NCBI RefSeq assembly: GCF_007993755.1 | Contig: NZ_CP042467.1 | Location: 4,674,001 to 4,738,000, forward strand | Reading direction: 5' to 3' | Origin: Microvenator marinus | GTDB lineage: Bacteria; Myxococcota_A; Bradymonadia; Bradymonadales; Bradymonadaceae | DNA length: 64,000 nt | Shown here: positions 1,879-17,008 of the stretch, in pieces | Layout of the letters: every line of letters begins with the position of its first letter | Position numbering within the stretch: position 1 is the stretch's first letter | Position numbers and translations under genes: made by a program | The notes under the pieces: model-generated | What the model saw: the letters and a program-made list of their open reading frames with translations, nothing else | Database searches by the model: none | Told to the model about the DNA's origin: nothing

Positions 1879-2121
1879 TCGTTGAGTATGTCCGAACAAT
1901 CGCGCGCATTCAAGCAGATCTACGTATCCCGATGGGTACATCAGACCCCGGTCAACTCTACCCGTGGGGTTCTTGGTCACCGGTCCAGTTTCGCGCGAGA
2001 AGGTTGATGTAGGTGTGTGTAAGTCATTGTGTTCCGGTGTGTTGCGCGCCGATTGGTCCACATTCGCCGGCTTGGCACGCAATCTGCTCTAAGTAGAACC
2101 GACGCCAGCATAGGAGCCGAC

Positions 2122-3417
2122 ATGAACCGCCAAACCTACTTAGCACTCATCTTCATCGCCACAACCTTCGGACTAGGAAATGATTGTAAGGCTCCAGCGC
2201 TCATGACTCCAGCCAATGCCGGCGAGTTCGACCCGAACCAGCATGGCGGCCCCGCTGATAATTTTGGGCAGCCTGGGCAAAACGGAACGCAGCAGCCTGG
2301 AAACGGCGGCACCCAAGGTGGCACGCAGGACGGCACCACGTCGGCGGCTCCGGCAGGCACAGCCTGCCAACACATGGGCGAATGCGGCGGCGGAATGGCG
2401 TGTGTCTCTGGCGTTTGTGAGACGGAGTCTGTGCTCGTCGTGTCCATGACCTGGGAGGCGAACACTGACCTCGACCTCCACCTGATTCAGCCAAACGGCG
2501 AAGAAGTCTACTACCGCAACCGAGAAACCCGTGACGGCGCAAGGTTCGCTCAGGATGCATGCATCGCTGACCGTTGCGAGCCAGGCACCGAGCGCCGCGA
2601 AATCATCCGCTACAACGCATTTGCACCGGGCGGAGAATACCGCGTCTTCGCAGTGAACTACGACGGCCAAGAAGCCGCGACCGCCACCGTAGAAGTCATT
2701 TACGAAGGCCAGACCGAGACCTTCACCTTGAACCTTGGCGCACAAGCTGGCGAGGAATCTCAGGAAATCACCTTCGACGTCGCCATGATGGACGCCCCGT
2801 GCACCGTCAACGTTGCAGGCTACGGCGAAGTGGACCTTGAGAACGACTACATCCCGAACGTCATCGCCTGCGAGAACGGCAACGCACCCCCAGAAGCCTT
2901 GAAAGCTGCCGCAATCATGGCGCGCGGATTCGCCTACTACAAGACGAAGATCGAGGGCAAAACCGTGCTTCAAAACTCCGAAGCAGACCAGGTCTACCGA
3001 TGTTCATACCGCCCGAATGGCGCAGGCCCCGAGCACTACGCCGCGGCACGCGCAACCACCGGCCAGCACCCTCGATGGCGCGGACATATCATCGCCCCGT
3101 TCTACGTGGCTGGTAACGTGCCACCGAGCCCGAACGCCGCGGATCCCGTCAACTCGTGCAAAGGAACCGGCGGCTCCAATGGCGTAGGGACCGAGGGTCT
3201 CGTCACCTACAACTACGGCAAGTTCGACTGTGATATCGAGATGTCAGACCAGGGCTGGGTCACAAACCCATGCACCCGCAACCCGCACAACCGCGGCACC
3301 GCCTCACAAAACGGCCAAGCATGTCTTGCAAACTTCGGTTGGGCAGCGCCAGAGCTTCTCGAGTACTACTACGGCGCTGATGTCGAGATGAGCACCGCCG
3401 ACTTCTGCGCGAACTAA
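2122..3417 (+). CDS. Secreted protein: YfaP/DUF2135-like domain fused to SpoIID/LytB-like domain
   Basis: 431 aa. The start at 2122 is supported by TAGGAG at 2111-2116 and by the N-terminal hydrophobic segment; an open extension back to 2029 has neither. Residues 1-20 are a signal-like helix, followed by a Gly/Gln/Asn-rich linker (about 35-80) and a short Cys cluster. Residues about 104-220 form a beta domain (MTWEANTDLDLHLIQPNGE ... YNAFAPGGEYRVFAVNY) resembling the YfaP/DUF2135 family. Residues about 228-431 resemble SpoIID/LytB: PPEALKAAAIMARGFAYYK preceded by Glu251, then NRGTASQNGQACLANFGW and LLEYYYGADVEM. SpoIID proteins are lytic transglycosylases acting on peptidoglycan, and Glu251 is in the expected catalytic position give or take one residue. 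Export and a cell-wall role are inferred. The signal does not end in a canonical lipobox. Confidence 0.7.
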   Translation: MNRQTYLALIFIATTFGLGNDCKAPALMTPANAGEFDPNQHGGPADNFGQPGQNGTQQPGNGGTQGGTQDGTTSAAPAGTACQHMGECGGGMACVSGVCETESVLVVSMTWEANTDLDLHLIQPNGEEVYYRNRETRDGARFAQDACIADRCEPGTERREIIRYNAFAPGGEYRVFAVNYDGQEAATATVEVIYEGQTETFTLNLGAQAGEESQEITFDVAMMDAPCTVNVAGYGEVDLENDYIPNVIACENGNAPPEALKAAAIMARGFAYYKTKIEGKTVLQNSEADQVYRCSYRPNGAGPEHYAAARATTGQHPRWRGHIIAPFYVAGNVPPSPNAADPVNSCKGTGGSNGVGTEGLVTYNYGKFDCDIEMSDQGWVTNPCTRNPHNRGTASQNGQACLANFGWAAPELLEYYYGADVEMSTADFCAN

Positions 3418-3464: not shown

Positions 3465-5096
3465 GTGTTAAACCGCCCCATCACACAGCTCGGCCTTCTC
3501 CTCCTGGCGATTGTCCTCATCTACCTGCCCACGCTTGGGTATGGCCACCTTCCAACCTGGGACGACACGAACTTCGTGGTCTGGCGGCCCGAGATTCTGG
3601 ACTGGTGGGGGAGTACGTGGACGGAACGCCTCTTAAACCCCAATATCGGCTACCCGATCCCCATCCCAACTGCACTCTACGCGGCGTTGCGCGCTATCTT
3701 TGGTGAGCACGGCTACTATGGGATTTTGCACGGGCTGCACGTTGGCTTTCATCTCATCAACACCGCTTTGGTCTTCGCGCTCGTCCGCGCGCTACGCTCC
3801 GCGCTCAGTCGCGAGGAGGCAGACCTCAGGCCTGCACTACCCATACTCATCGCGGCCGTGTGGGCGCTCCATCCGGTGCTCGTCGAGAGTGTGGCCTGGC
3901 TCACAAACACCAAAAATCTCCTCTCCAATATGGCTATTTTGGCGGCGCTGAACCTTCAGTTTCGGCTCCCAAAATTCGGACTGCTCAAAGCCTTGCCGTT
4001 CCTAGTACTCCTCTACGTCTTAGCTATCGGCTCAAGGCCCGATGGCGCGATTCTGCCTTTCATTCTGGGGTTTGCGGCGCTTCTAACTCAGCCTCAGATT
4101 ACTTCCACACTTAAGAAGTGGTTCGCGGCGCTCTGCGCACTTGGCGCGGTCTCTCTGCCCTACGTCTACTGGGCCAGCTCCACGCACGCGGGCGTGGCGG
4201 AACGCAAAGCTCCAATGATGGGAGGCGTGTCCGAAGTCCTCTTTAGAATCGGGCGTGCACTTGAATTCTCGGCGCTGAACATCGCGTTCCCCGTGGAATT
4301 GCACCCGAGCTACTTCTACCACGGCGACGAGACGCTCGTTCGTGGGCTTCCAGGCCTTTTTATCGGCGTACTTTTGGTGGGCGGCTTTGCACTTCTCTGG
4401 CGCAAGAATCAGGCGTGGAGCAGGTTTGCCGCCTTTGGCCTGGGGCTAGGATTGGCATCTTATGTGCCGTATTCGAATCTGGTTTTCTTGCCGCGTTTGG
4501 CTGCCGATACCTACCTCTACATGCCCACGTTAGGCGTGATGATTTTCCTCGGTGGTGCGCTCTCGATGCCGCGTATTGGCAGGCGCCTGGTGCCGATTAT
4601 GGCGGGACTGGTGCTGGTCTACACGCTCTTGAGCGCAAATCAGGTGCGCCGCTGGGAGAATGCGGTCACGCTCTGGGAGCCTGTGATCGAGTTTGAGCCT
4701 ACGCTGGACAGGTCCTATCGGCATATCGCGTTTCATCATCTGGGCAATCAGGACTGGAAAGCCGCGCTCGACGTGGTGGAGCGGGGCTTGCCACATTTTC
4801 GGCGAGAAAGAGATATCCCTTGGTACGTGCTGGTGATTTACCGGGAGACCAAAGGGCCTTTGGCTGCGGCTGAAATCGGGATGGAGGCTCGGCTTGAAAA
4901 TGATGTGGTGGCTGCGGAGCTACATAAGGCTTTTGTGGAAACGCTGCTCATTGGCAAGATTCCGCCGCCTCCAGACCCTGCCCTCAAGGCCGTGATTCGC
5001 GAGAGTATGGAGTTCTATCTCACCCGTGAAGACTGGCTGCAGAATCCGTCGGCTCGACCTGCCGTCGAGGCGTATCTCCCGTCAACCCAGCCCTGA
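3465..5096 (+). CDS. Multi-pass membrane protein resembling TMTC-type glycosyltransferases
   Basis: 543 aa, starting at GTG 3465. About ten hydrophobic segments span residues 8-400. The first loop carries WDDTNFV, followed by a conserved block H...N.ALVFALVRAL and then WALHPVLVESVAWLTNTKN. This order (acidic pair after helix 1, H..N in helix 2, HP..ES.AW..N.K) matches TMTC-type O-mannosyltransferases and bacterial relatives, which use lipid-linked sugars in the membrane. The C-terminal 130 residues are soluble and contain a helical pair (RSYRHIAFHHLGNQDWKAALDVVERGL) like one TPR unit, where TMTC proteins carry long TPR tails. No glycosylation genes are adjacent. The enzyme class is fairly likely; the acceptor is unknown. 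Confidence 0.6.
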   Translation: MLNRPITQLGLLLLAIVLIYLPTLGYGHLPTWDDTNFVVWRPEILDWWGSTWTERLLNPNIGYPIPIPTALYAALRAIFGEHGYYGILHGLHVGFHLINTALVFALVRALRSALSREEADLRPALPILIAAVWALHPVLVESVAWLTNTKNLLSNMAILAALNLQFRLPKFGLLKALPFLVLLYVLAIGSRPDGAILPFILGFAALLTQPQITSTLKKWFAALCALGAVSLPYVYWASSTHAGVAERKAPMMGGVSEVLFRIGRALEFSALNIAFPVELHPSYFYHGDETLVRGLPGLFIGVLLVGGFALLWRKNQAWSRFAAFGLGLGLASYVPYSNLVFLPRLAADTYLYMPTLGVMIFLGGALSMPRIGRRLVPIMAGLVLVYTLLSANQVRRWENAVTLWEPVIEFEPTLDRSYRHIAFHHLGNQDWKAALDVVERGLPHFRRERDIPWYVLVIYRETKGPLAAAEIGMEARLENDVVAAELHKAFVETLLIGKIPPPPDPALKAVIRESMEFYLTREDWLQNPSARPAVEAYLPSTQP

Positions 5097-5170
5097 GCGA
5101 CAAAAAATCTACCCAAAATCATCGGTCGTCCGTAGAACCTTTTGCGGGACGTCTGTGATACGGATACCGA

Positions 5171-5872
5171 ATGGAGATTAAGGACAACCCGCAACTTCTG
5201 AAGCGCTTTAAAGAAGGCGACAAGGAAGTCCTGACCGAGCTCTACCGCGCACATGTCGCGGCGGTCTCGGAGCTTCTGCGACGAGGGTTCTCGTTTCGCA
5301 GCGGCACAGAGTTTGTGAGGTTTTCCGGGTTCTCGGCACCTCACCAACTCCAGGAGATGGTGCAAGATACGTTCATTCGAGCTTTCCGCCAGCAATCGCG
5401 CGAAGCCTATGACGGAAAGCGGCCCTTCAGGCCCTTCTTGATCACCATCTCCAAGAACCTCGTGATCGACGGATTTCGGCGCGAGGTCGTAGAAAAGCGG
5501 CTCTTCGTCCCTATGGGGCGACTGGTCGGAGAGGGCGAAAGCCCAGAAGATGCGGCGTCCAGAATGCACGGCAACGAGCCGGCACTGACGCCCGAGGAAG
5601 AAACGATTCGTACGCAGCTCAGAGAGGTTCTGGCTGCGTTTTTGGAGACGCTTGATGGAGTTGAACGCCAAATTGTGGACGAGCACCTGCTCGGAGAACT
5701 CTCGCAGCGCGACATGGCCGAGGCACTCGGCGTGGACCGCAACGAGCTCCGGCGCCGTCTCAAAGGCATTCGCGAAAGACTCCTCAGACATCTCAAAGCG
5801 AGCGGATTTATCTCGGACATGGACCCGAGCGAACTCCTGCAATCCCTCATGGTGTTCTCGTGGCTGAAATGA
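5171..5872 (+). CDS. RNA polymerase ECF-type sigma factor
   Basis: 233 aa. Region 2 is visible at about residues 14-95 (LTELYRAHVAAVSELL, then QEMVQDTFIRAFRQ and RPFLITISKNLVIDGFRRE). Region 4 lies at about residues 140-225 (FLETLDGVERQIVDEHLLGELSQRDMAEALGVDRNELRRRLKGIRERL), with the helix-turn-helix. Regions 1 and 3 are absent, as in ECF (group 4) factors, although at 233 aa it is somewhat longer than usual. It directs RNA polymerase to a special promoter set. Its stop overlaps the start of the next gene (ATGA, 5869-5872), a membrane protein in the position normally taken by the anti-sigma factor. Together with the caspase-like gene at 6675 this makes a three-gene operon. Confidence 0.88.
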   Translation: MEIKDNPQLLKRFKEGDKEVLTELYRAHVAAVSELLRRGFSFRSGTEFVRFSGFSAPHQLQEMVQDTFIRAFRQQSREAYDGKRPFRPFLITISKNLVIDGFRREVVEKRLFVPMGRLVGEGESPEDAASRMHGNEPALTPEEETIRTQLREVLAAFLETLDGVERQIVDEHLLGELSQRDMAEALGVDRNELRRRLKGIRERLLRHLKASGFISDMDPSELLQSLMVFSWLK

Positions 5873-6678
5873 GCGACCGCCAATGGCTCGAGGCCACCTT
5901 TACGGACCCGGAAGAAGCGGGGCAGGGCAGGCGTGCGCTTGGCCAAGATTCCAAGGCATATTACGACTCCCTCGCGCTCGCCGCGCGCCTTGGTAAACAT
6001 GACGTCTCGGAGTTCGAGGAAGCCGCCACCGAAGCCCTATTCTTAGGTGCGCTGGACGAGATGCTTGCCGAAGAAGCTCCTCCCGCTAAGAAATCCTGGG
6101 TCCCACAGCTCGCGCTCGTAGCCGGCGCTCTCATTGCTGGTGGTGCACTGGTCTGGGGTCTAAACTCCGGAGTTTTCCAGGCCGATGACGGCTTCCAAGC
6201 TCGTGGGATTCACGTTCCAGCCGAAGAATACGGCCAAACGCGGGTCCTCCCATTTTGCGCCCGAGCCATCGCCGATGAGATCCAGTTCATCACCCCCGAC
6301 CAGGGCCCGTGTCTGCTCTCAGACGAGCTCAAACTCGCCTACACATCGGACGATGCGCGTCTGAAGTACGGGCATTTCTTAGGGGTACACGAATCCGGCG
6401 AGCTCTATTGGTATGGACCAAGTCCAGCGGCACCGGGTTCGTTGAAAGTAGAGCGAGCCCCACAAACGCCTGTTCCGGTCGGCGAATCCATCAAACTCGG
6501 TGTGAATCATAAGGCAGGCACCATTTTTGTGATGGGTGTCTTCGCTGAGCGAGAGATGGAAATGGGCGAGCTTGAGTCGTGGGCCAAGGCCCAGCTCGGC
6601 GCGTTGCAGCAGGGGCATACCCCAAGATTGGACCGAGCCCGGGTGTCTGTGGCAGAATTGAAAGTGGAGGCCGAATGA
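5869..6678 (+). CDS. Single-pass membrane protein, probable anti-sigma factor
   Basis: 269 aa from the ATG at 5869, which overlaps the sigma-factor stop by 4 nt; a GTG nine bases upstream is possible. Residues 1-78 are cytoplasmic and acidic/helical, residues 79-98 are one transmembrane helix (LALVAGALIAGGALVWGL), and residues 100-269 are exported. No clear HxxxCxxC zinc anti-sigma motif is present. The exported part (ADEIQFITPD..., YGHFLGVHESGELYWYGPSP, PVPVGESIKL) resembles DUF4384-type sensory domains, which often accompany caspase-like proteins. Position and topology suggest that it holds the sigma factor at the membrane and responds to an envelope signal; this is inference. Its stop overlaps the caspase gene start by 4 nt. 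Confidence 0.7.
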   Translation: MSDRQWLEATFTDPEEAGQGRRALGQDSKAYYDSLALAARLGKHDVSEFEEAATEALFLGALDEMLAEEAPPAKKSWVPQLALVAGALIAGGALVWGLNSGVFQADDGFQARGIHVPAEEYGQTRVLPFCARAIADEIQFITPDQGPCLLSDELKLAYTSDDARLKYGHFLGVHESGELYWYGPSPAAPGSLKVERAPQTPVPVGESIKLGVNHKAGTIFVMGVFAEREMEMGELESWAKAQLGALQQGHTPRLDRARVSVAELKVEAE

Positions 6679-8381
6679 GAAAGTTACTTGCCACCTTGGT
6701 GGGAGCCGCCGCTTTGACCCTTTGCGTGAATGCCTCGGCTGAGACACGAACCTACGCTCTGATCGTAGCCAATAACGGGAGCGTGGACGAGAACGTGGAG
6801 CCGCTCAGGTACGCCGACGACGACGGCGCACGATTTTTCGAAATCTTTAGTGATTATGCGGATGAGGCGCACCTTCTGACTACGCTCGACGCGGAGTCTC
6901 AGCGCACCTTTCCAAAGGTCGTGGCGCATACCACGCCGCCCACGTTGAAGAACGTCAAAGCTCAAGTAAAGAGCCTGGCTGAAAAGATCGCCGCCGATAA
7001 AGAGGCAGGTATTCGCTCTGAGGTCTATCTGGTCTTCACGGGCCACGGCAACGTGGACTCCAATGGCGAGGGCTATCTGTCCATGGCGGACGGAAAGCTC
7101 GAGCGCTCGGAGCTCATGAGGGATGTGATCCGCCCGCTGGACGCGAGCTTTACGCACGTGATCATCGACGCCTGCCACGCCTACTTTATGGTGAAATCTC
7201 GCGGAGGTTGGGAAGACGATCGGTCTGGGCGAACGCTCGATTCCGAGCTTCAGGCGTTTTTGCGCGACGGAAAGGCCACCTCCAATATGCCGACTGTGGG
7301 CCTGATCTTGAGCACGGCAGGAGCACAGGAAGTCCATGAATGGAGCGAGTTTGGAGCTGGTGTATTCAGTCACCAACTGCGATCTGGGCTCCTCGGAGCC
7401 GCAGATGCGGACGGTGACTCGCGCGTGACCTATCAGGAGTTGGAGGCTTATTTGGTGGCTGCGAACGCTGCGGTGACCAATCCGAAAGCCAAGATCAAAG
7501 TCTTTGTGGAGGCGCCTAAGCAGGACCGCAATACAGCGTTGGCAAATCTGGATAAATTCAGCGGTGGCCGCCTGGCCTTGGATGCGCCGGGCGAACGCCT
7601 CTGGATCGAGGATTCTCGCGGGGTTCGATACGCCGACGTCAACCCGGGCCCTGGGCTTGCAGGCGAGCTTCGGCTCTTGAGTCCCGGAACGTATTACGCG
7701 CGAACTCGCACCAAATTGGCGCGACTCAACACTTCTGAGAGTACAACGCTCGCCCAGCTCACATGGGAAGTCGCCCCAAATCAGGCGCGCTCGGCGGTGG
7801 GCGAAGCGTTTAGAGAGCAGCTCTTTGCCACGCCGTTTGGGCCGGCATTTGTGGCTGGTTTTAGCGCGGGACGCGAGGCCTCGACCTCTAGTAGCGTTCA
7901 GCTCCGGTCCGAGTCGGCTTGGAATACCGAGTTGAACGTGCACTATGCCCTCGGTTCGGCCATCCTCGATGCGCCAGGCTTTGAGCACCAACTCAGCCTG
8001 AGTGTTGGCGGCACACATGAGGCAGGCTGGCGTCTGGCGGGTTTCACCGAGTACGGGCTCTCCACAGACGGGTCCAATTTTGGGCATCGCGCGGCGCTCG
8101 GATTCGAGGGCGGTTGGCGAGCCATGTTCGGGGATTTCTCGCTCGGACTTGCCGGCCGGATCGGCCCTCAGTTTGTGGTGCGCGATCAGCCCGAACTGAG
8201 TTCGGACCCCCTTGGGCTCCGAGTGGCTGGTCATCTGAACCTCGGCTGGAGAGTTTCTGAGTCCTTTGCGCCGTTTGCTCTTCTCGGCTACGGGCTAAAC
8301 GTTGTGACCACAACTAGCCGAGACGAAACCACCGAGAATCTAGATGCATCTCTATTCGCTGGCCTCGGCATTCGCTGGTAG
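6675..8381 (+). CDS. Exported caspase-like (C14) protease with C-terminal beta-barrel-like domain
   Basis: 568 aa. The ATG at 6675 overlaps the previous stop (ATGA) and starts a signal peptide (MRKLLATLVGAAALTLCVNASA). The peptidase C14/caspase p20-like fold covers about residues 24-330: YALIVANNGSVDENVEPLRYADDD, VYLVFTGHGN with catalytic His124, and HVIIDACHAYF with catalytic Cys167. After a linker, residues about 420-568 consist of alternating short beta segments (LSLSVGGTHEAGWRLAGFTEYGL, LGLAGRIGPQFVV, LFAGLGIRW) ending in an aromatic residue, as outer-membrane barrels do. I infer a cell-surface or periplasmic protease anchored in the outer membrane. It is the third gene of a sigma/anti-sigma operon, so its synthesis is probably tied to an envelope signal. 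A paralogue of the same architecture lies at 50899-52449. Confidence 0.82.
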   Translation: MRKLLATLVGAAALTLCVNASAETRTYALIVANNGSVDENVEPLRYADDDGARFFEIFSDYADEAHLLTTLDAESQRTFPKVVAHTTPPTLKNVKAQVKSLAEKIAADKEAGIRSEVYLVFTGHGNVDSNGEGYLSMADGKLERSELMRDVIRPLDASFTHVIIDACHAYFMVKSRGGWEDDRSGRTLDSELQAFLRDGKATSNMPTVGLILSTAGAQEVHEWSEFGAGVFSHQLRSGLLGAADADGDSRVTYQELEAYLVAANAAVTNPKAKIKVFVEAPKQDRNTALANLDKFSGGRLALDAPGERLWIEDSRGVRYADVNPGPGLAGELRLLSPGTYYARTRTKLARLNTSESTTLAQLTWEVAPNQARSAVGEAFREQLFATPFGPAFVAGFSAGREASTSSSVQLRSESAWNTELNVHYALGSAILDAPGFEHQLSLSVGGTHEAGWRLAGFTEYGLSTDGSNFGHRAALGFEGGWRAMFGDFSLGLAGRIGPQFVVRDQPELSSDPLGLRVAGHLNLGWRVSESFAPFALLGYGLNVVTTTSRDETTENLDASLFAGLGIRW

Positions 8382-10739: not shown

Positions 10740-10846
10740 AAAGTGTAGAAACTGAATACGAAAACTTTAGACGAAACTTGTAAAAGTCCCGGGGGACGCG
10801 CATTATTTTGGTCAAGAGAATAAGAAATCCAGGACCAAGGATACCC

Positions 10847-13800
10847 ATGCGGTATTTACGCGCGATGCAATTCTTTGTTGCATTGGCTCTCACGTTCGTG
10901 GGCGCTGATGTTGCATTTGCAATATGTGGTGATGGGACGCGTCAAGCGAGCGAGAACTGCGACGATGGCAATACCGTGAGCTTTGATGGGTGCGATTCGC
11001 TCTGTCAATTGGAGTACTGCGGCGACGGCATCCGGAACAACACCCCGCTTGAGACCTGCGATGACGGCAACCAGATGTCCGGTGATGGGTGCGACCATAA
11101 TTGCGAAGTCGAGATTGAGTACTCGTGTACCGGCGCACAAGGCGAGCTCTCCTCGTGTGTCAGAACATCGATTTGCGGCAACGGCACCGTGGATCCGGGC
11201 GAGGAGTGCGATGACTCGAACCTCGTCAACAATGATGGGTGTAGCGATACGTGCAAGGTTGAGTCGTGTGGCGACGGAATCGTTCAGCCAACTGAGGCCT
11301 GCGATATGTTCCAGCTCACAGGTACTCACCCGGGGTGCCTTGCTGATTGTACCGTTGGACCCGGCTATAGCTGCGCTAACGAAGTCGGTCTGCCATCGGT
11401 GTGTACCGAGGTCTGTGGTGATGGAATCCAGACCCCACGTGAAGGCTGTGATGACGGGAATCTCGTAGACGGAGATGGATGTAGCGCGATGTGCGCTGCT
11501 GAGGTGTGCGGCAATGGGTTCATCGATGCCGGCGAAGCGTGTGACGACGGAAATACGGTAGCCGGGGACGGTTGTGCTGCCGATTGTCTGACGGTTGAGC
11601 CAGGTTTTGAATGCGGCGCGTTTTGTATGCCAACTACGAGCTGCACCCCCGGAAACTTGGTCAAGTATATTGGCACGTCGGGTGTCTCTAACAGCACCTA
11701 TATTGGCAGCGATGCTGCAAACCCGTATCGAATTTTCGCGTACTACAATATCGCAGCATTCAGTTTGGCTGGGGGAGAGATTCTTTCGTTCGACAGCATT
11801 TCTGCGGAGACGGCTCCTTTGCGCGCCAGAATTTGGATGGCTAGTTCCGATTCTTTAAGTAACCGAACGAGCCCATGGACGCTCGTGGTGGACGATTACA
11901 CGATGCCTCATAACGGGGATACAAAGCTTCGAAACTTCGACCTCCGGTTTCCTGTGACGGGTGCATACTCGCACGCGGGTGGATACCTCTTGATGAGATG
12001 GGAAATCATTCAAGGTGGCCACACGGTAAGGCCGGGATTGAACTCCTACTTCGAGGGGAGTTGGAAAGACGCTGACGGTGTTGAGGATGCGGCGCTCACT
12101 GCCCCTGGCTGGGATTCTCTGATGTCATCGAGTTACGCCCTGGAGTTCGTCATCCGAACCGGGCCAACGCCGTGTTTTGACTACGAGGCAGTTGGGGGTT
12201 GTGGTGGCAATCAAAAGGCTACGTGCGATGCCGCGACCTTGAGCTGCAAGCCCCCGTCGGCCGAACTTTGTTCCGACGCGACGCGAAACTGTGGTTGCGG
12301 TTCCGGTACATGCTCGGATTGTGAGTCGCAGACGCGCTGGAATCTATTTAACTATTTCGACTGCGTCGATGGAGTCTATTTCACATACCAGCGACTCGCC
12401 TACTACGAGTACAGTTGCTACGAGTCGACCACCAGCAGGTTCTGTTCCACGAACACAACAAGTGGAGGCTCATTTACCTCGTACACCCTCCCAAGCTTCG
12501 ATTTTGTGGGATGCCGCGACGGTGATATCTGTACTCAGGATACTTGCACGAGTACGTCATGTGTGAACTCAGAGGTTCCCGCGGTGGCATGTTATGACGG
12601 CACTTCGGGCACCCAGGGCGTTGGGGCATGCGCCGACGGTTTGGAATACTGCCGCGATCCCGGTGTTTGTGCCGGTCAGGTTTTGCCCGCCGCAGAGGTC
12701 TGTGACGGCATCGACAACGATTGTAACGCCGTCACCGACGACGACCCCGACGCCTCGTTGACCTGTGACGATGGAAACGCAGCCACCGCAGATTCATGCG
12801 CGACCGGAACCTGCCAAAACGTACTCGTCTGCACCCAGACGGATACAGATTGTGGGACCACGACCTCATGCGAGAACTGTAATCTGCAGGACGGTTGGTA
12901 CAACGTTGGAACACCTTACGCGTGCTGCTCAGGCGGTGGGCAATCGTGCGACTGCCAGGATGAGGAATACCGAGACTACTACTGTAACGCCGGAACCTGC
13001 TTTGCCGTTGTGACGGCTACCAACGTTCAACAAACGGGGTGCACCACGTGCGATGACGCGAACCTCTGCACGGACGACTTCTGCAACGCCGGCACGGGAG
13101 CCTGCGATGCGACCAACAACACGTTCTCGCAAGCGTGTTACACAGGCCCTGCAGGCACCGAGGGTGTTGGTCCGTGTGTGGCCGGCACCGAAACCTGCAG
13201 CGGTGGTGTGATGGGCGCGTGTACCGATGTCACGCCTTCGGTAGAATCCTGCGATGGCTTTGATAACGACTGCAACAACTTGATCGACGATGGGCTCGCC
13301 GACAACGACTGCCCGCTTGGTCAGGCGTGCCACGCCGGCGCGTGTTTCGACCAGTGTGTAGATACACCGGATTGCCCCGCTCAAACGTGTTTCGACGACT
13401 CGTTCGTCTGTCTGGACAACGAACCATGCAACTCCGTGACATGTCCTGGCGCCAATATCTGTTACGAGGGCGCATGCTACCCGGGATGTAACTCGGATAT
13501 CGACTGTACCCAGGCCGATACGCGCTGCTACCAATCACAACGCTGTCTGCAGGCCGGCCAAAAGTGCCGAAACGTCCAGTGTCCTGTGGGCGAAACCTGC
13601 CGTGAAGGTGGCTGCTACGAGCCCTGCGCGGTCACCGCGGACTGCTCAGACATGAACGCCGAGTGTTATGACGGCTACTGCATGACCACGCCATGCGGCG
13701 GAATCGATTGCCTCATGGACGAGGTATGCTGGCAGGCAAACTGCTTTGAGAGCTGCCTCGTCGACGACGATTGCTCCGACCCATCCCACGCATGTTGGGA

Positions 13801-16800
13801 CGCCACACGCTGCGCGCCTGCCGCTGATCCGTGCTCCAACGTCATCTGCCCCGAAGGCGAGTTCTGCTATGGCGGCTCATGCTTTGTGGATTGTACCCAG
13901 AACGTGGACTGCACGGACCCCGGCCACGCCTGCTACGACGCCGCTCGCTGCGCAACAGACGCCTGTGACGGCGTTCAATGCCCAACCGGCACCGGATGCT
14001 TTGGCGGAAACTGCTTCGACCTCTGCGCCTCCGACGTAGACTGCACCGACCCCGGTGATATCTGTTTCGAGAACTTCTGTATGACTGACGCCTGCGAGAG
14101 CGTTCAATGCCCCGAAGGCATGAGCTGCTATCTTGGCGGCTGCTTTGACCCATGCGCCTCAAACGCCGACTGCACCGACCCCACCCACGAGTGCTATAAC
14201 GGACTCTGCGCCTCCGACCCGTGCACCGGAACCCTTTGTCCTGTGGGCGAATCCTGTTGGGGCGGCTATTGCTTTGTAGACTGTGACTTGAACCCAGATT
14301 GCTCCACGGTGAGCATGACCGCCTTGTGTTGGAACGAAGACCGCTGCTCAGACGACGTCTGTGCAAACGTCGCGTGCCCCGTGGACGATATCTGTTACGG
14401 CGGCGCGTGCTTTGAGACCTGTGGCGAAACCGCCGATTGTTCAGACCCTACCCACGCCTGCTACGACGGCCGATGTACCTCAGAGGCCTGCGCGGGAGTT
14501 CAATGCCCGCAGGGCGATATCTGCTACGCCGGAACCTGCTTTGAGTCCTGTGCTGGCGGCGCTGTGTGCTCGGACCCGACCCATAGCTGTTTTGATGATC
14601 GATGCGCGGCAGACGATTGTGCCGGCGTTCAATGCCCAACGGACAACGTCTGCTACGGCGGCGCCTGTTTTGAGTCTTGTGGGTCCACCATCGACTGCTC
14701 CGATCCAAGCCATATTTGCTTCGACTCGCGCTGCCAGGACCCTTGCGCCGGTACCACATGCGGCGGCGGTGAGACCTGCTACGCCGGAACTTGCTACGAG
14801 ACCTGCAACGTAGACGCTGACTGCTCCGACCGAGACTCTATCTGCTTTGACGAGCGATGCGTGAGCCCTGAAGATCCTGCATGTGATGGCGTAAACTGCC
14901 CAACCGGCGAGGCCTGTTACGGCGGAACCTGCTACGAGAGCTGCGGAACCGATGCCGATTGCTCCGATCCAAACTCGATTTGCTACGGCGATGTCTGCCT
15001 CGCCACCGATTGCGGAAGCACTCGATGCCGCGCGGGCGAGGTCTGCTTTGGTGGGGCGTGTTTCGCGGAATGTGGTGATGATGCCGACTGCTCCGACCCA
15101 TCACACGCATGCTACGACGGCCGCTGCGCGAACAGTGCGTGTGAGGCCATCGCGACCGACCTGATTACGGATTATAACGCGAACCACCCGTTCAAGAACC
15201 TCGGCCACCGTCTCAATGCCTCGCAGCTCTCCTCACCCGCTGTTTGGCCACGGCCTTACACCCAACCGGGAACGAGTTTTGACGATTGGGTGCAACTTCC
15301 AGATGCTACCGCCGTTTCGGCCGCTCGAGACGTGCTCCAAAAGTCTAAAGCACGCGTGATCTTCTTCCTCGATGAGGGCAACAAGAAGTACTACATCTGG
15401 CTCGCTCACGGTGACGACGACCCCGCCCAAGGCTACGCCGAGGTCACCTACTCAATTCGTTTCCTCAACGAGGACCCAAGCGTGGTCTTGATGGATGACC
15501 GAGACCGTGAAGGCTACACCATCGCGCCAAAACACGGGAACGAAACTCAAGTGCAGGTCTTCATCAACTCCGTGGCTGGCACTACCGGAGGTATCGCGTT
15601 TGAGATGCCAGCGGATAAGCCATGGCAGGCTGAAATCAACTCGCAATTCTCCGGCGATATCGTCGCCTGGGAAGTCATGAACGGCGAGCGCAACAAGCCT
15701 ATCAAAGTGGCGCGGCGCGACGAGACATTGACCATTGGCGTGGTCCCGCTGGAGTACAACTCCTTCGATCCGGCCTCCGGATTTGAATGCGATACGTACC
15801 GTCCCGGAATCTGTGGACGTGGCTCATTGCATCAGTGTACCAATTGGCAAATGCGCTGCTTCAATTCCGTCAATGCCGCGGCCTTCGAAGTGTGTGATGG
15901 CGTGGACAACACCTGTGATGGGCGCGTGGACGCTCTGGACGACCTCCGAGTCCCCATGCTCTACACCCGTCAGTGGGATATACAGCGCTGGCGCGTTTGG
16001 CCGACATTCGACTCGAACCAGACCATCAACGATTGGGTGAGGCGTCGCACACGAAGCGGTGATAACCGCCTCGGCTACACCGACGCACGCCAGATTGACG
16101 GGTCTTCGTTCCAGCGAGTTCGGCAGGTCAATCTTGCGGCGCATCGCCATCTGCCTACTGGCCAAATCTCAACGCCCGTCTTCATTGGTGCTTACAGCGA
16201 CGACGACGATGACGAGGATGACTTTGGAGGACGTGATGTCAAGATGGGGGTGAGGGCGCTGGGAACCACGCCTTTGGAACGCTCGTTTGTGGCCTGGTAC
16301 GACGACCGTCCACCGGCGAGCACAAGCGACAAAGTCTTGAAGCGTTTTGAGTCCTCAAATGGTCGCTACGACGCGGATTTCAAAATCGAGGAGTTCGGTA
16401 ACGACCGAATCGAGTCCGATACATGGGCGCCACGGCCCTTGTGGAACGCCTATTTCCTCAATCCGATCGAATATCGAATCGTCTACACCGACATGATCTG
16501 GCGCTATGCATGGAGGCGTGTACAGCCCGGTCTTCCAAAGTCGGATTTGAACCGTGCTGCTGGTCTTCAGGTCAGAACCGAAAGCGCGCCTATCGACGAA
16601 GCCTTCTGTATCAGCGACCAGGTTACCGAAGATGGGTGCCGAATCGGTGTCTATATCTGTACCGCAAACGGGATTCAGTGCTCGGCGCCAGACGCCGCCA
16701 TTTGTAGCAGAGGCTGCACCGACGGTGATGGCGACGGACACGATGACTTTGACCCGGTCTTCTGTCCCGACGGGACCGACTGCGACGACGACGACCGGTT

Positions 16801-17008
16801 CACCTACCCGGGCGCACCAGAAATCTGCAACGGCCGCGATAACTCCTGTGACGGAGAACCCGACCAGACGGCGTCGGGTTGCCCGGACGGTCAAGCGTCT
16901 TGCGGTCCCGAAGAATGTGGGTTCCGAAATGTCTGTGTGTGCCCAGAGGGTCCAGAACTCCCAGGAGACCCGGTCAGCAAGTGTTTCTGCGGGGAGGGCC
17001 TTCAATGA
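10847..17008 (+). CDS. Giant secreted cysteine-rich repeat protein (DUF4215, MopE-like motifs)
   Basis: 2053 aa from the ATG at 10847, which has AAGGAT at a suitable distance and starts a signal peptide ([17 protein letters not shown]..., cleavage near AFA/I). A TTG at 10808 is possible but adds a basic stretch. Residues about 26-265 hold six DUF4215 units (CGDG...E.CDDGN...DGC...C). A non-Cys beta domain of about 180 residues follows. MopE-like motifs ([44 protein letters not shown]) occur at four places. The centre is an array of about thirteen 44-residue Cys units (13427-15138). The C-terminal third mixes a unique domain with an acidic DDDDDEDDF run. MopE-type proteins bind copper and calcium at the cell surface; that role is not shown here. 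The last codon overlaps the next gene (ATGA), so the two giant proteins are translationally coupled. Confidence 0.85.
13427..15138 (+). repeat. Tandem array of about thirteen 44-residue cysteine-rich units within the coding region
   Basis: Units follow the pattern C.GVQCP.G..CYGG.CFESC..D.DCSDP.HACYD.RC, about 131 bp each, with a degenerate lead-in copy from about 13306. Spacing between Cys residues is nearly constant. Units 4-6 and 8-10 are the most alike, and units 3, 7 and 11 have small insertions before the next unit. The copies differ at many DNA positions, so the array is old rather than freshly expanded. Confidence 0.9.

Follow-up and report, generated by a model that had tools for sequence, protein, structure and literature searches.

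Introduction

The closest working analogies to the locus described here are the DegS/RseA (PMC10028731) and FecIRA systems. The locus lies in a 64,000-nucleotide stretch of the Microvenator marinus genome (contig NZ_CP042467.1, positions 4,674,001 to 4,738,000; hereafter the window) and encodes an extracytoplasmic function (ECF) sigma factor, a single-pass membrane protein, and an exported caspase-like protein. Like the RseA/DegS/RseP pathway of Escherichia coli sigma E, it combines an ECF sigma factor with a single-pass anti-sigma factor, a site-1 cut predicted to fall within the periplasmic linker of the latter, and an operon that is apparently autoregulated. Whereas DegS is a PDZ serine protease, the candidate site-1 protease here is a caspase-fold cysteine protease that is encoded in the same operon and is sometimes anchored by a barrel. 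The locus also resembles FecI-FecR-FecA, in which a sigma factor, an inner-membrane regulator, and a barrel with a periplasmic N-terminal domain are encoded in one operon. FecA, however, is a 22-stranded TonB-dependent receptor with a small signaling domain and no protease, whereas the barrel predicted here has eight strands. We rejected an assignment to FecIRA on the basis of this barrel and of the lack of a FecR match for the middle protein.

A caspase-like protease that cleaves an ECF-like sigma inhibitor is found in Craspase/CASP (Csx29 TPR-CHAT, Csx30, and CASP-sigma) (PMC10028731). Craspase is a cytoplasmic, RNA-guided CRISPR type III-E system with no export, transmembrane anti-sigma factor, or barrel, and membership was rejected because the operon contains no CRISPR III-E effector, TPR-CHAT, or Csx30 genes. 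A defense system was also considered and rejected, as PADLOC gave no match here. The protease shares with type I metacaspases and orthocaspases (C14B) a His/Cys dyad, S1 acids at matching spacing, and an association with calcium, but differs from C14B metacaspases in its signal peptide, EF-hand-type loop, barrel, and sigma/anti-sigma linkage. A 2012 survey (Asplund-Samuelsson et al., PMC3501461) reported that four of the five metacaspase operons of M. xanthus contain sigma-70 genes, and that sigma-70/metacaspase operons occur in Myxococcus, Anaeromyxobacter, Haliangium, and Sorangium. These probably belong to the same broad family as the window operon, and the main text of the survey gives no anti-sigma factor, cleavage site, barrel, or mechanism for them. 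We found no paper that describes the barrel form, the link to an anti-sigma factor, or the site of cleavage in a search of mostly non-subscription literature, with the 2021 ECF reclassification by Casas-Pastor outside it. A sequence-only reading of the window had taken the layout of the operon to be undescribed; this appears to hold for the anti-sigma factor, the cleavage site, and the barrel, but not for the pairing of sigma factor and metacaspase, on record since 2012.

We consider it somewhat better than an even chance that the anti-sigma factor is cut at site 1 by the caspase of its own operon, within a self-contained envelope-signaling switch. A fuller version, to which we give a little less than an even chance, is that such modules operate throughout the phylum, with an exported, EF-hand-calcium-gated caspase, which in this lineage is tethered to the outer membrane, acting as the site-1 protease that cuts its own anti-sigma factor after one near-invariant basic residue.

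Results and Discussion

A sigma/anti-sigma/caspase operon

The three genes are consecutive on the plus strand at positions 5171 to 8381 of the window, and both junctions are 4-nucleotide ATGA overlaps:

5171..5872, plus strand: ECF sigma factor gene, 233 amino acids, ATG 5171 to TGA 5872
5869..6678, plus strand: middle gene, single-pass anti-sigma factor, 269 amino acids, ATG 5869 to TGA 6678
6675..8381, plus strand: exported caspase-like protease with an outer-membrane barrel (predicted), 568 amino acids, ATG 6675

Longer mechanical open reading frames from GTG 5860 and GTG 6579 are not needed for these gene models. The first protein matches the NCBIfam sigma70-ECF model TIGR02937 at 70 bits (cutoff, 42.9; E value, 1.7e-19); its matches to Pfam Sigma70_r2 and Sigma70_ECF exceed the cutoffs, and that to Sigma70_r4_2 (E value, 1.3e-4) falls under the cutoff. 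With sigma regions 2 and 4, no region 3, and a match to the ECF model, it is an ECF sigma factor. The sequence-only reading had proposed such a factor as the first of three genes overlapping by 4 nucleotides, in a sigma/anti-sigma/caspase-barrel operon. The start and stop coordinates and the family matches agree with this, as do the predicted folds and the adjacency in distant genomes presented below. Our results clearly confirm the three-gene operon and show that the observation extends further than that reading saw.

Linkage of the three genes across Myxococcota

Gene order was compared in 26 genomes of the window's order, in which close caspase-barrel relatives were defined by an E value of <1e-100. 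Ten genomes, the window's own included, carry such a relative. A middle-protein homolog adjoins it in every case, and so does a sigma gene, save in G004, where the contig ends. The middle and caspase genes overlap by 4 nucleotides at nine of the ten loci and are separated by a small gap at the other (L047). No gene flanking the trio in the window has a counterpart beside any other copy. Because the trio is kept in distant genomes while its flanks change, its adjacency is more than chance.

Scanning 84,980 species genomes yielded 79 loci, nearly all in records named Myxococcales, Deltaproteobacteria, or Myxococcota, with a middle-protein homolog at 76 and a sigma gene at 68. Broader profiles and the addition of 20 divergent caspase loci gave a set of 99 loci, nearly all from Myxococcota. 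All three genes are neighbors at 87 of these, and a contig end truncates 8 of the other 12. As had been anticipated, the trio is conserved in Myxococcota. Two arrangements occur: the three genes in line and, in Myxococcaceae, a caspase gene divergent from the sigma/anti-sigma pair. The pairwise distance matrices of the three proteins correlate with r values of 0.79 to 0.88, against a permutation maximum of 0.14, part of the correlation being shared phylogeny.

In a reverse test, 20 loci were picked on anti-sigma matches alone, with no caspase listed beforehand. A caspase gene adjoins in 17; one locus is cut by a contig end, and two are orphans. At 20 control loci of ordinary anti-sigma factors, picked on a match to the N-terminal domain alone, an ECF sigma gene is present in 19 and a caspase gene in none. 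The contrast of 17/20 with 0/20 shows that the linkage belongs to the caspase-associated type of anti-sigma factor, and chance neighborhood was rejected on the same grounds. The wider caspase family occurs in 139 of the 284 Myxococcota genomes sampled, frequently as multiple copies, and a sigma/anti-sigma pair is linked to nearly every locus of the family that was inspected.

Some genomes and loci depart from the usual picture. Four genomes (G021, G025, G220, and G214) each harbor many paralogous sigma/anti-sigma/caspase sets, which suggests parallel, insulated switches. Divergent exported caspases of the family without an adjoining sigma/anti-sigma pair are found at L175, L176, and L177, with two caspase genes in a row at L175. 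L186 (G024:C58, positions 3872-5423), where an anti-sigma homolog accompanies a fragmented sigma gene but a caspase gene is missing, looks like a decaying copy. At L058 (positions 1-2229), on a contig-edge metagenome-assembled genome, a single open frame runs through an anti-sigma ectodomain and the caspase. It could be a natural fusion or result from an assembly frameshift, and it was not used as evidence.

An exported caspase with a predicted outer-membrane barrel

The third protein comprises the following elements, all on the plus strand:

6675..6740: Sec signal peptide, approximately residues 1-22, AxA-type NASA/ET, read from the sequence (orthologue N termini are hydrophobic)
6744..7514: caspase-like catalytic domain, residues 24-280
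6822-6824: predicted S1 acid D50
7044-7046: H124 of the catalytic dyad
7167-7169: predicted S1 acid D165
7173-7175: C167 of the catalytic dyad
7404..7439: predicted EF-hand calcium loop D244-E255 (DADGDSRVTYQE), between helices 230-242 and 253-264
7536..7730: beta-strand-rich domain, residues 288-352, between caspase and barrel (AlphaFold2)
7794..7898: helical linker, residues 374-408, before the barrel (AlphaFold2)
7920..8375: predicted eight-stranded outer-membrane beta-barrel, residues 416-567 (AlphaFold2 and fold matches)

The protein matches Pfam Peptidase_C14 (PF00656) at 26.8 bits (cutoff, 21.4), with the dyad at the positions where a complete His124/Cys167 caspase-like domain had been claimed. 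Its AlphaFold2 model (mean predicted local distance difference test score [pLDDT], 89.6) has a caspase fold up to about residue 280, which legumain matches in a fold search of the PDB; in a PDB sequence search with the caspase profile, EF-hand proteins were the sole matches. D50, H124, D165, and C167 are each invariant at 99 of 99 loci. By the spacings C-x-x-D and D-x-C, D50 and D165 are the equivalents of Asp95 and Asp211 of TbMCA2, which form an S1 pocket for basic residues; C14B enzymes cleave after Arg or Lys (PMC4357240, PMC6426788). The caspase is thus expected, from its S1 acids, to be of the Arg/Lys-specific metacaspase type. Calcium activation is common among metacaspases (PMC4357240). 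D244 of the EF-hand loop is conserved at 98 of 99 loci and E255 in all 97 aligned sequences, and EF-hand_5 matches 28 of 56 homologs. The position of the loop within a helix-loop-helix (residues 230-264) suggests calcium binding.

The barrel is modeled as eight long strands, and the terminal residue of the protein is Trp. The best PDB matches of the third protein are NspA, OmpX, OmpA, and OmpW (E values, 7e-7 to 3e-5), and Pfam OMP_b-brl matches the barrel under the cutoff (0.0065). The signal peptide, the amphipathic barrel with an even number of strands, and the C-terminal aromatic residue are those of an outer-membrane barrel, and the barrel-like C terminus that had been read from positions 6675-8381 is reproduced by the structure prediction. 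Both ends of an even-stranded outer-membrane barrel point into the periplasm. Because the barrel has eight strands, the caspase should be periplasmic: it probably shares a compartment with the exported domain of the anti-sigma factor while being anchored to the outer membrane, and the earlier description of a surface protease is probably wrong.

This architecture raises the possibility of a receptor like FecA/FecR, in which the outer-membrane protein signals by contact with the anti-sigma ectodomain and the caspase fold is a binding domain. The gene order and compartments equal those of fecI-fecR-fecA, and a barrel is joined to a periplasmic N-terminal domain in both. We consider this explanation improbable: a pure binding domain would have no need of the catalytic and S1 residues, which are all invariant at 99 of 99 loci; many members have no barrel; and features of a TonB-dependent receptor are absent. 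The barrel form is mainly confined to the order-level clade of the window. Of 76 caspase tails classified, 37 contain a hydrophobic helix, whereas 19 of the proteins, from Myxococcaceae in nearly every case, are essentially tail-less. The mechanism cannot depend on the barrel, as the Myxococcaceae caspase is without a membrane anchor.

A predicted anti-sigma factor of zinc-binding descent

Three parts are recognized in the middle protein:

Residues 1-70: predicted cytoplasmic anti-sigma domain
6100..6162, plus strand: transmembrane helix, residues 78-98, hydrophobic, helical by DSSP in the AlphaFold2 model
Residues 125-267: extracytoplasmic DUF4384-like beta-sandwich in the AlphaFold2 model

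The model has a pLDDT of 81.8. KK precedes the sole hydrophobic helix (residues 78-98), which points to an N-in/C-out topology, and a transmembrane helix is present in 67 of 76 homologs. In Pfam and NCBIfam profile searches the middle protein alone had no family match, including none to FecR. Its N-terminal part matches anti-sigma factors that adjoin ECF sigma genes in 19 of the 20 controls. The zinc anti-sigma motif HxxxCxxC is present in 56 of 76 homologs, and zf-HC2 matches 31 of 51 relatives; the window protein aligns across the motif region, but its zinc ligands are gone. It shares with the zinc-binding anti-sigma (ZAS) family the adjoining ECF sigma gene, the homologous N-terminal domain, and the single transmembrane helix. 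Homology and context mark the middle protein as an anti-sigma factor descended from ZAS proteins, with a degenerate zinc site, that would bind and inhibit its sigma partner.

The resemblance of the exported part to DUF4384 (PF14326), noted in the sequence-only reading, is supported remotely, through relatives. The window protein itself is unmatched; its relative at L161, the best, scores 39.1 bits against a curated cutoff of 27, and DUF4384 matches 6 of 51 relatives at an E value of <0.1. A PDB fold search with the ectodomain gave weak Ig-like matches alone, none at an E value of <0.001. DUF4384 is joined to caspase homologs in other proteins (PMC7475262, PMC6426788), and this co-occurrence hints at a physical association.

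A candidate cleavage site in the anti-sigma linker

The linker between the transmembrane helix and the beta-sandwich contains a predicted cleavage site:

6202..6204, plus strand: codon of Arg112 (F-Q-A-R-G), predicted P1 residue, in the periplasmic linker 14 residues past the transmembrane helix

Column 112 of the anti-sigma alignment is Arg or Lys in 90 of 92 homologs. It ties with Pro184 as the most conserved column, and the zinc ligands are conserved at a lower level (81 to 84%). The basic site lies a median of 15 residues from the end of the transmembrane helix, in a linker that elsewhere is 8% basic, and pLDDT values of <50 at residues 112-115 of the AlphaFold2 model predict disorder. The motif [hydrophobic]-x-[ASPTVE]-[RK]-[GSAT] is present in 70 of 88 caspase-linked anti-sigma factors and in 0 of 20 ordinary ones; as it was derived from the same sequences on which it was scored, the comparison with the controls is the informative part. 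The motif is absent from the DUF4384 domains of the other proteins compared. The near-invariant Arg/Lys, taken together with the acidic S1 residues, lends independent support to cleavage of the regulator by the protease of its operon, as the sequence-only reading had supposed possible.

Several observations weigh against this reading. The window anti-sigma factor has lost the zinc ligands that define the ZAS motif, the S1 assignment is by motif spacing, not superposition, and the caspases of Myxococcaceae have no membrane anchor. In a second anti-sigma set, Arg or Lys is aligned at column 112 in just 15 of 19 members. Divergent members carry R-x-K-G immediately ahead of strand one of the sandwich, and the orphan L196 retains R-x-K-G with no caspase adjoining. 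The conserved basic residue could therefore be structural, with the three genes linked by a shared function in envelope stress and no contact between protease and substrate. We regard this as improbable, since the site has a pLDDT of <50 in the window model, the column tolerates almost exclusively Arg or Lys, and the motif is missing from DUF4384 domains elsewhere.

A promoter-like motif and the question of output

A predicted -35/-10 pair lies 5' of the sigma gene:

5103..5134, plus strand: promoter-like element AAAAATCTACC-N17-CGTA

In 10 of 10 orthologs, ACC-N17-CGT occurs with identical spacing within the 150 nucleotides that precede the sigma gene; in 100 dinucleotide-shuffled sets, the best shared triple reached 6 of 10. 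A canonical GGAAC ECF promoter was searched for and was not found, this different motif being present instead. In the divergent Myxococcaceae loci, conserved blocks were seen but no interpretable shared promoter. The conserved motif supports autoregulated expression, in line with the earlier suggestion that the sigma factor would raise expression of the protease. As the window copy is the sole exact match of the longer pattern across the 5.85-Mb genome, the operon may be the chief target of its own sigma factor. One-mismatch matches number three, against two for a reversed-pattern control, and a large sigma regulon was rejected on these counts. At L041, where the operon is split and the sigma and anti-sigma genes are 368 nucleotides apart, a second copy of the motif precedes the anti-sigma gene.

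The promoter evidence also fits an output-only role of the caspase. Here another protease would cut the anti-sigma factor, and the sigma factor would raise the caspase against other periplasmic or foreign proteins in stress, predation, or developmental lysis, the last of these suggested by the 2012 survey (PMC3501461). The caspase gene lies within the transcription unit behind the sigma-type motif, the genome motif search gave no other convincing sigma target, and the Myxococcaceae have secreted, tail-less caspases. We nonetheless consider this account unlikely, if well short of improbable: it leaves unexplained why the linker Arg/Lys is the joint most conserved residue of the anti-sigma factor, and why ordinary anti-sigma factors lack a motif that fits the expected specificity of the partner.

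Two further observations were made at L179 and L041. One-mismatch copies of the motif include L179:1501-1532 (G000:C1:1828280-1828311), about 36 nucleotides before a secreted lipoprotein-like gene, which could be a second sigma target, although the control rate is near the match rate. At L041:5240-5460, the spacer that separates the sigma gene from the anti-sigma gene contains short tandem-like repeats (ggttcgcc..ctcaccgat).

Proposed mechanism

Under self-cleavage of the anti-sigma factor, we infer the following course of events. At rest, the inner-membrane anti-sigma factor would keep the ECF sigma factor inactive, and the caspase, Arg/Lys-specific and calcium binding, would reside in the periplasm, where in this lineage its barrel would anchor it to the outer membrane. 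Upon an envelope signal, the caspase, possibly gated by calcium, would make the site-1 cut after Arg112, in the disordered linker outside the inner membrane. The stump would then be removed, presumably by a general site-2 protease. The freed sigma factor would transcribe its own operon from ACC-N17-CGT, giving more sigma factor, anti-sigma factor, and caspase.

If the mechanism holds, the bacterial envelope would be a place, outside CRISPR, where caspase-type proteolysis and regulated anti-sigma proteolysis come together; sequence would have predicted a native signaling substrate for an exported bacterial caspase; and an outer-membrane protease would reach across the periplasm to an inner-membrane regulator. 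With enzyme, substrate, cleavage residue, and promoter all predicted, the question of whether the protease cuts the anti-sigma factor is directly testable.

Other genes of the window

A SpoIID domain (Pfam, 34.7 bits against 23) is present in the secreted protein encoded at positions 2029-3417, whose N-terminal region resembles the lipoprotein-like gene in L179. A secreted, cysteine-rich repeat protein of 2066 amino acids is encoded at positions 10808-17008, directly downstream of EF-G.

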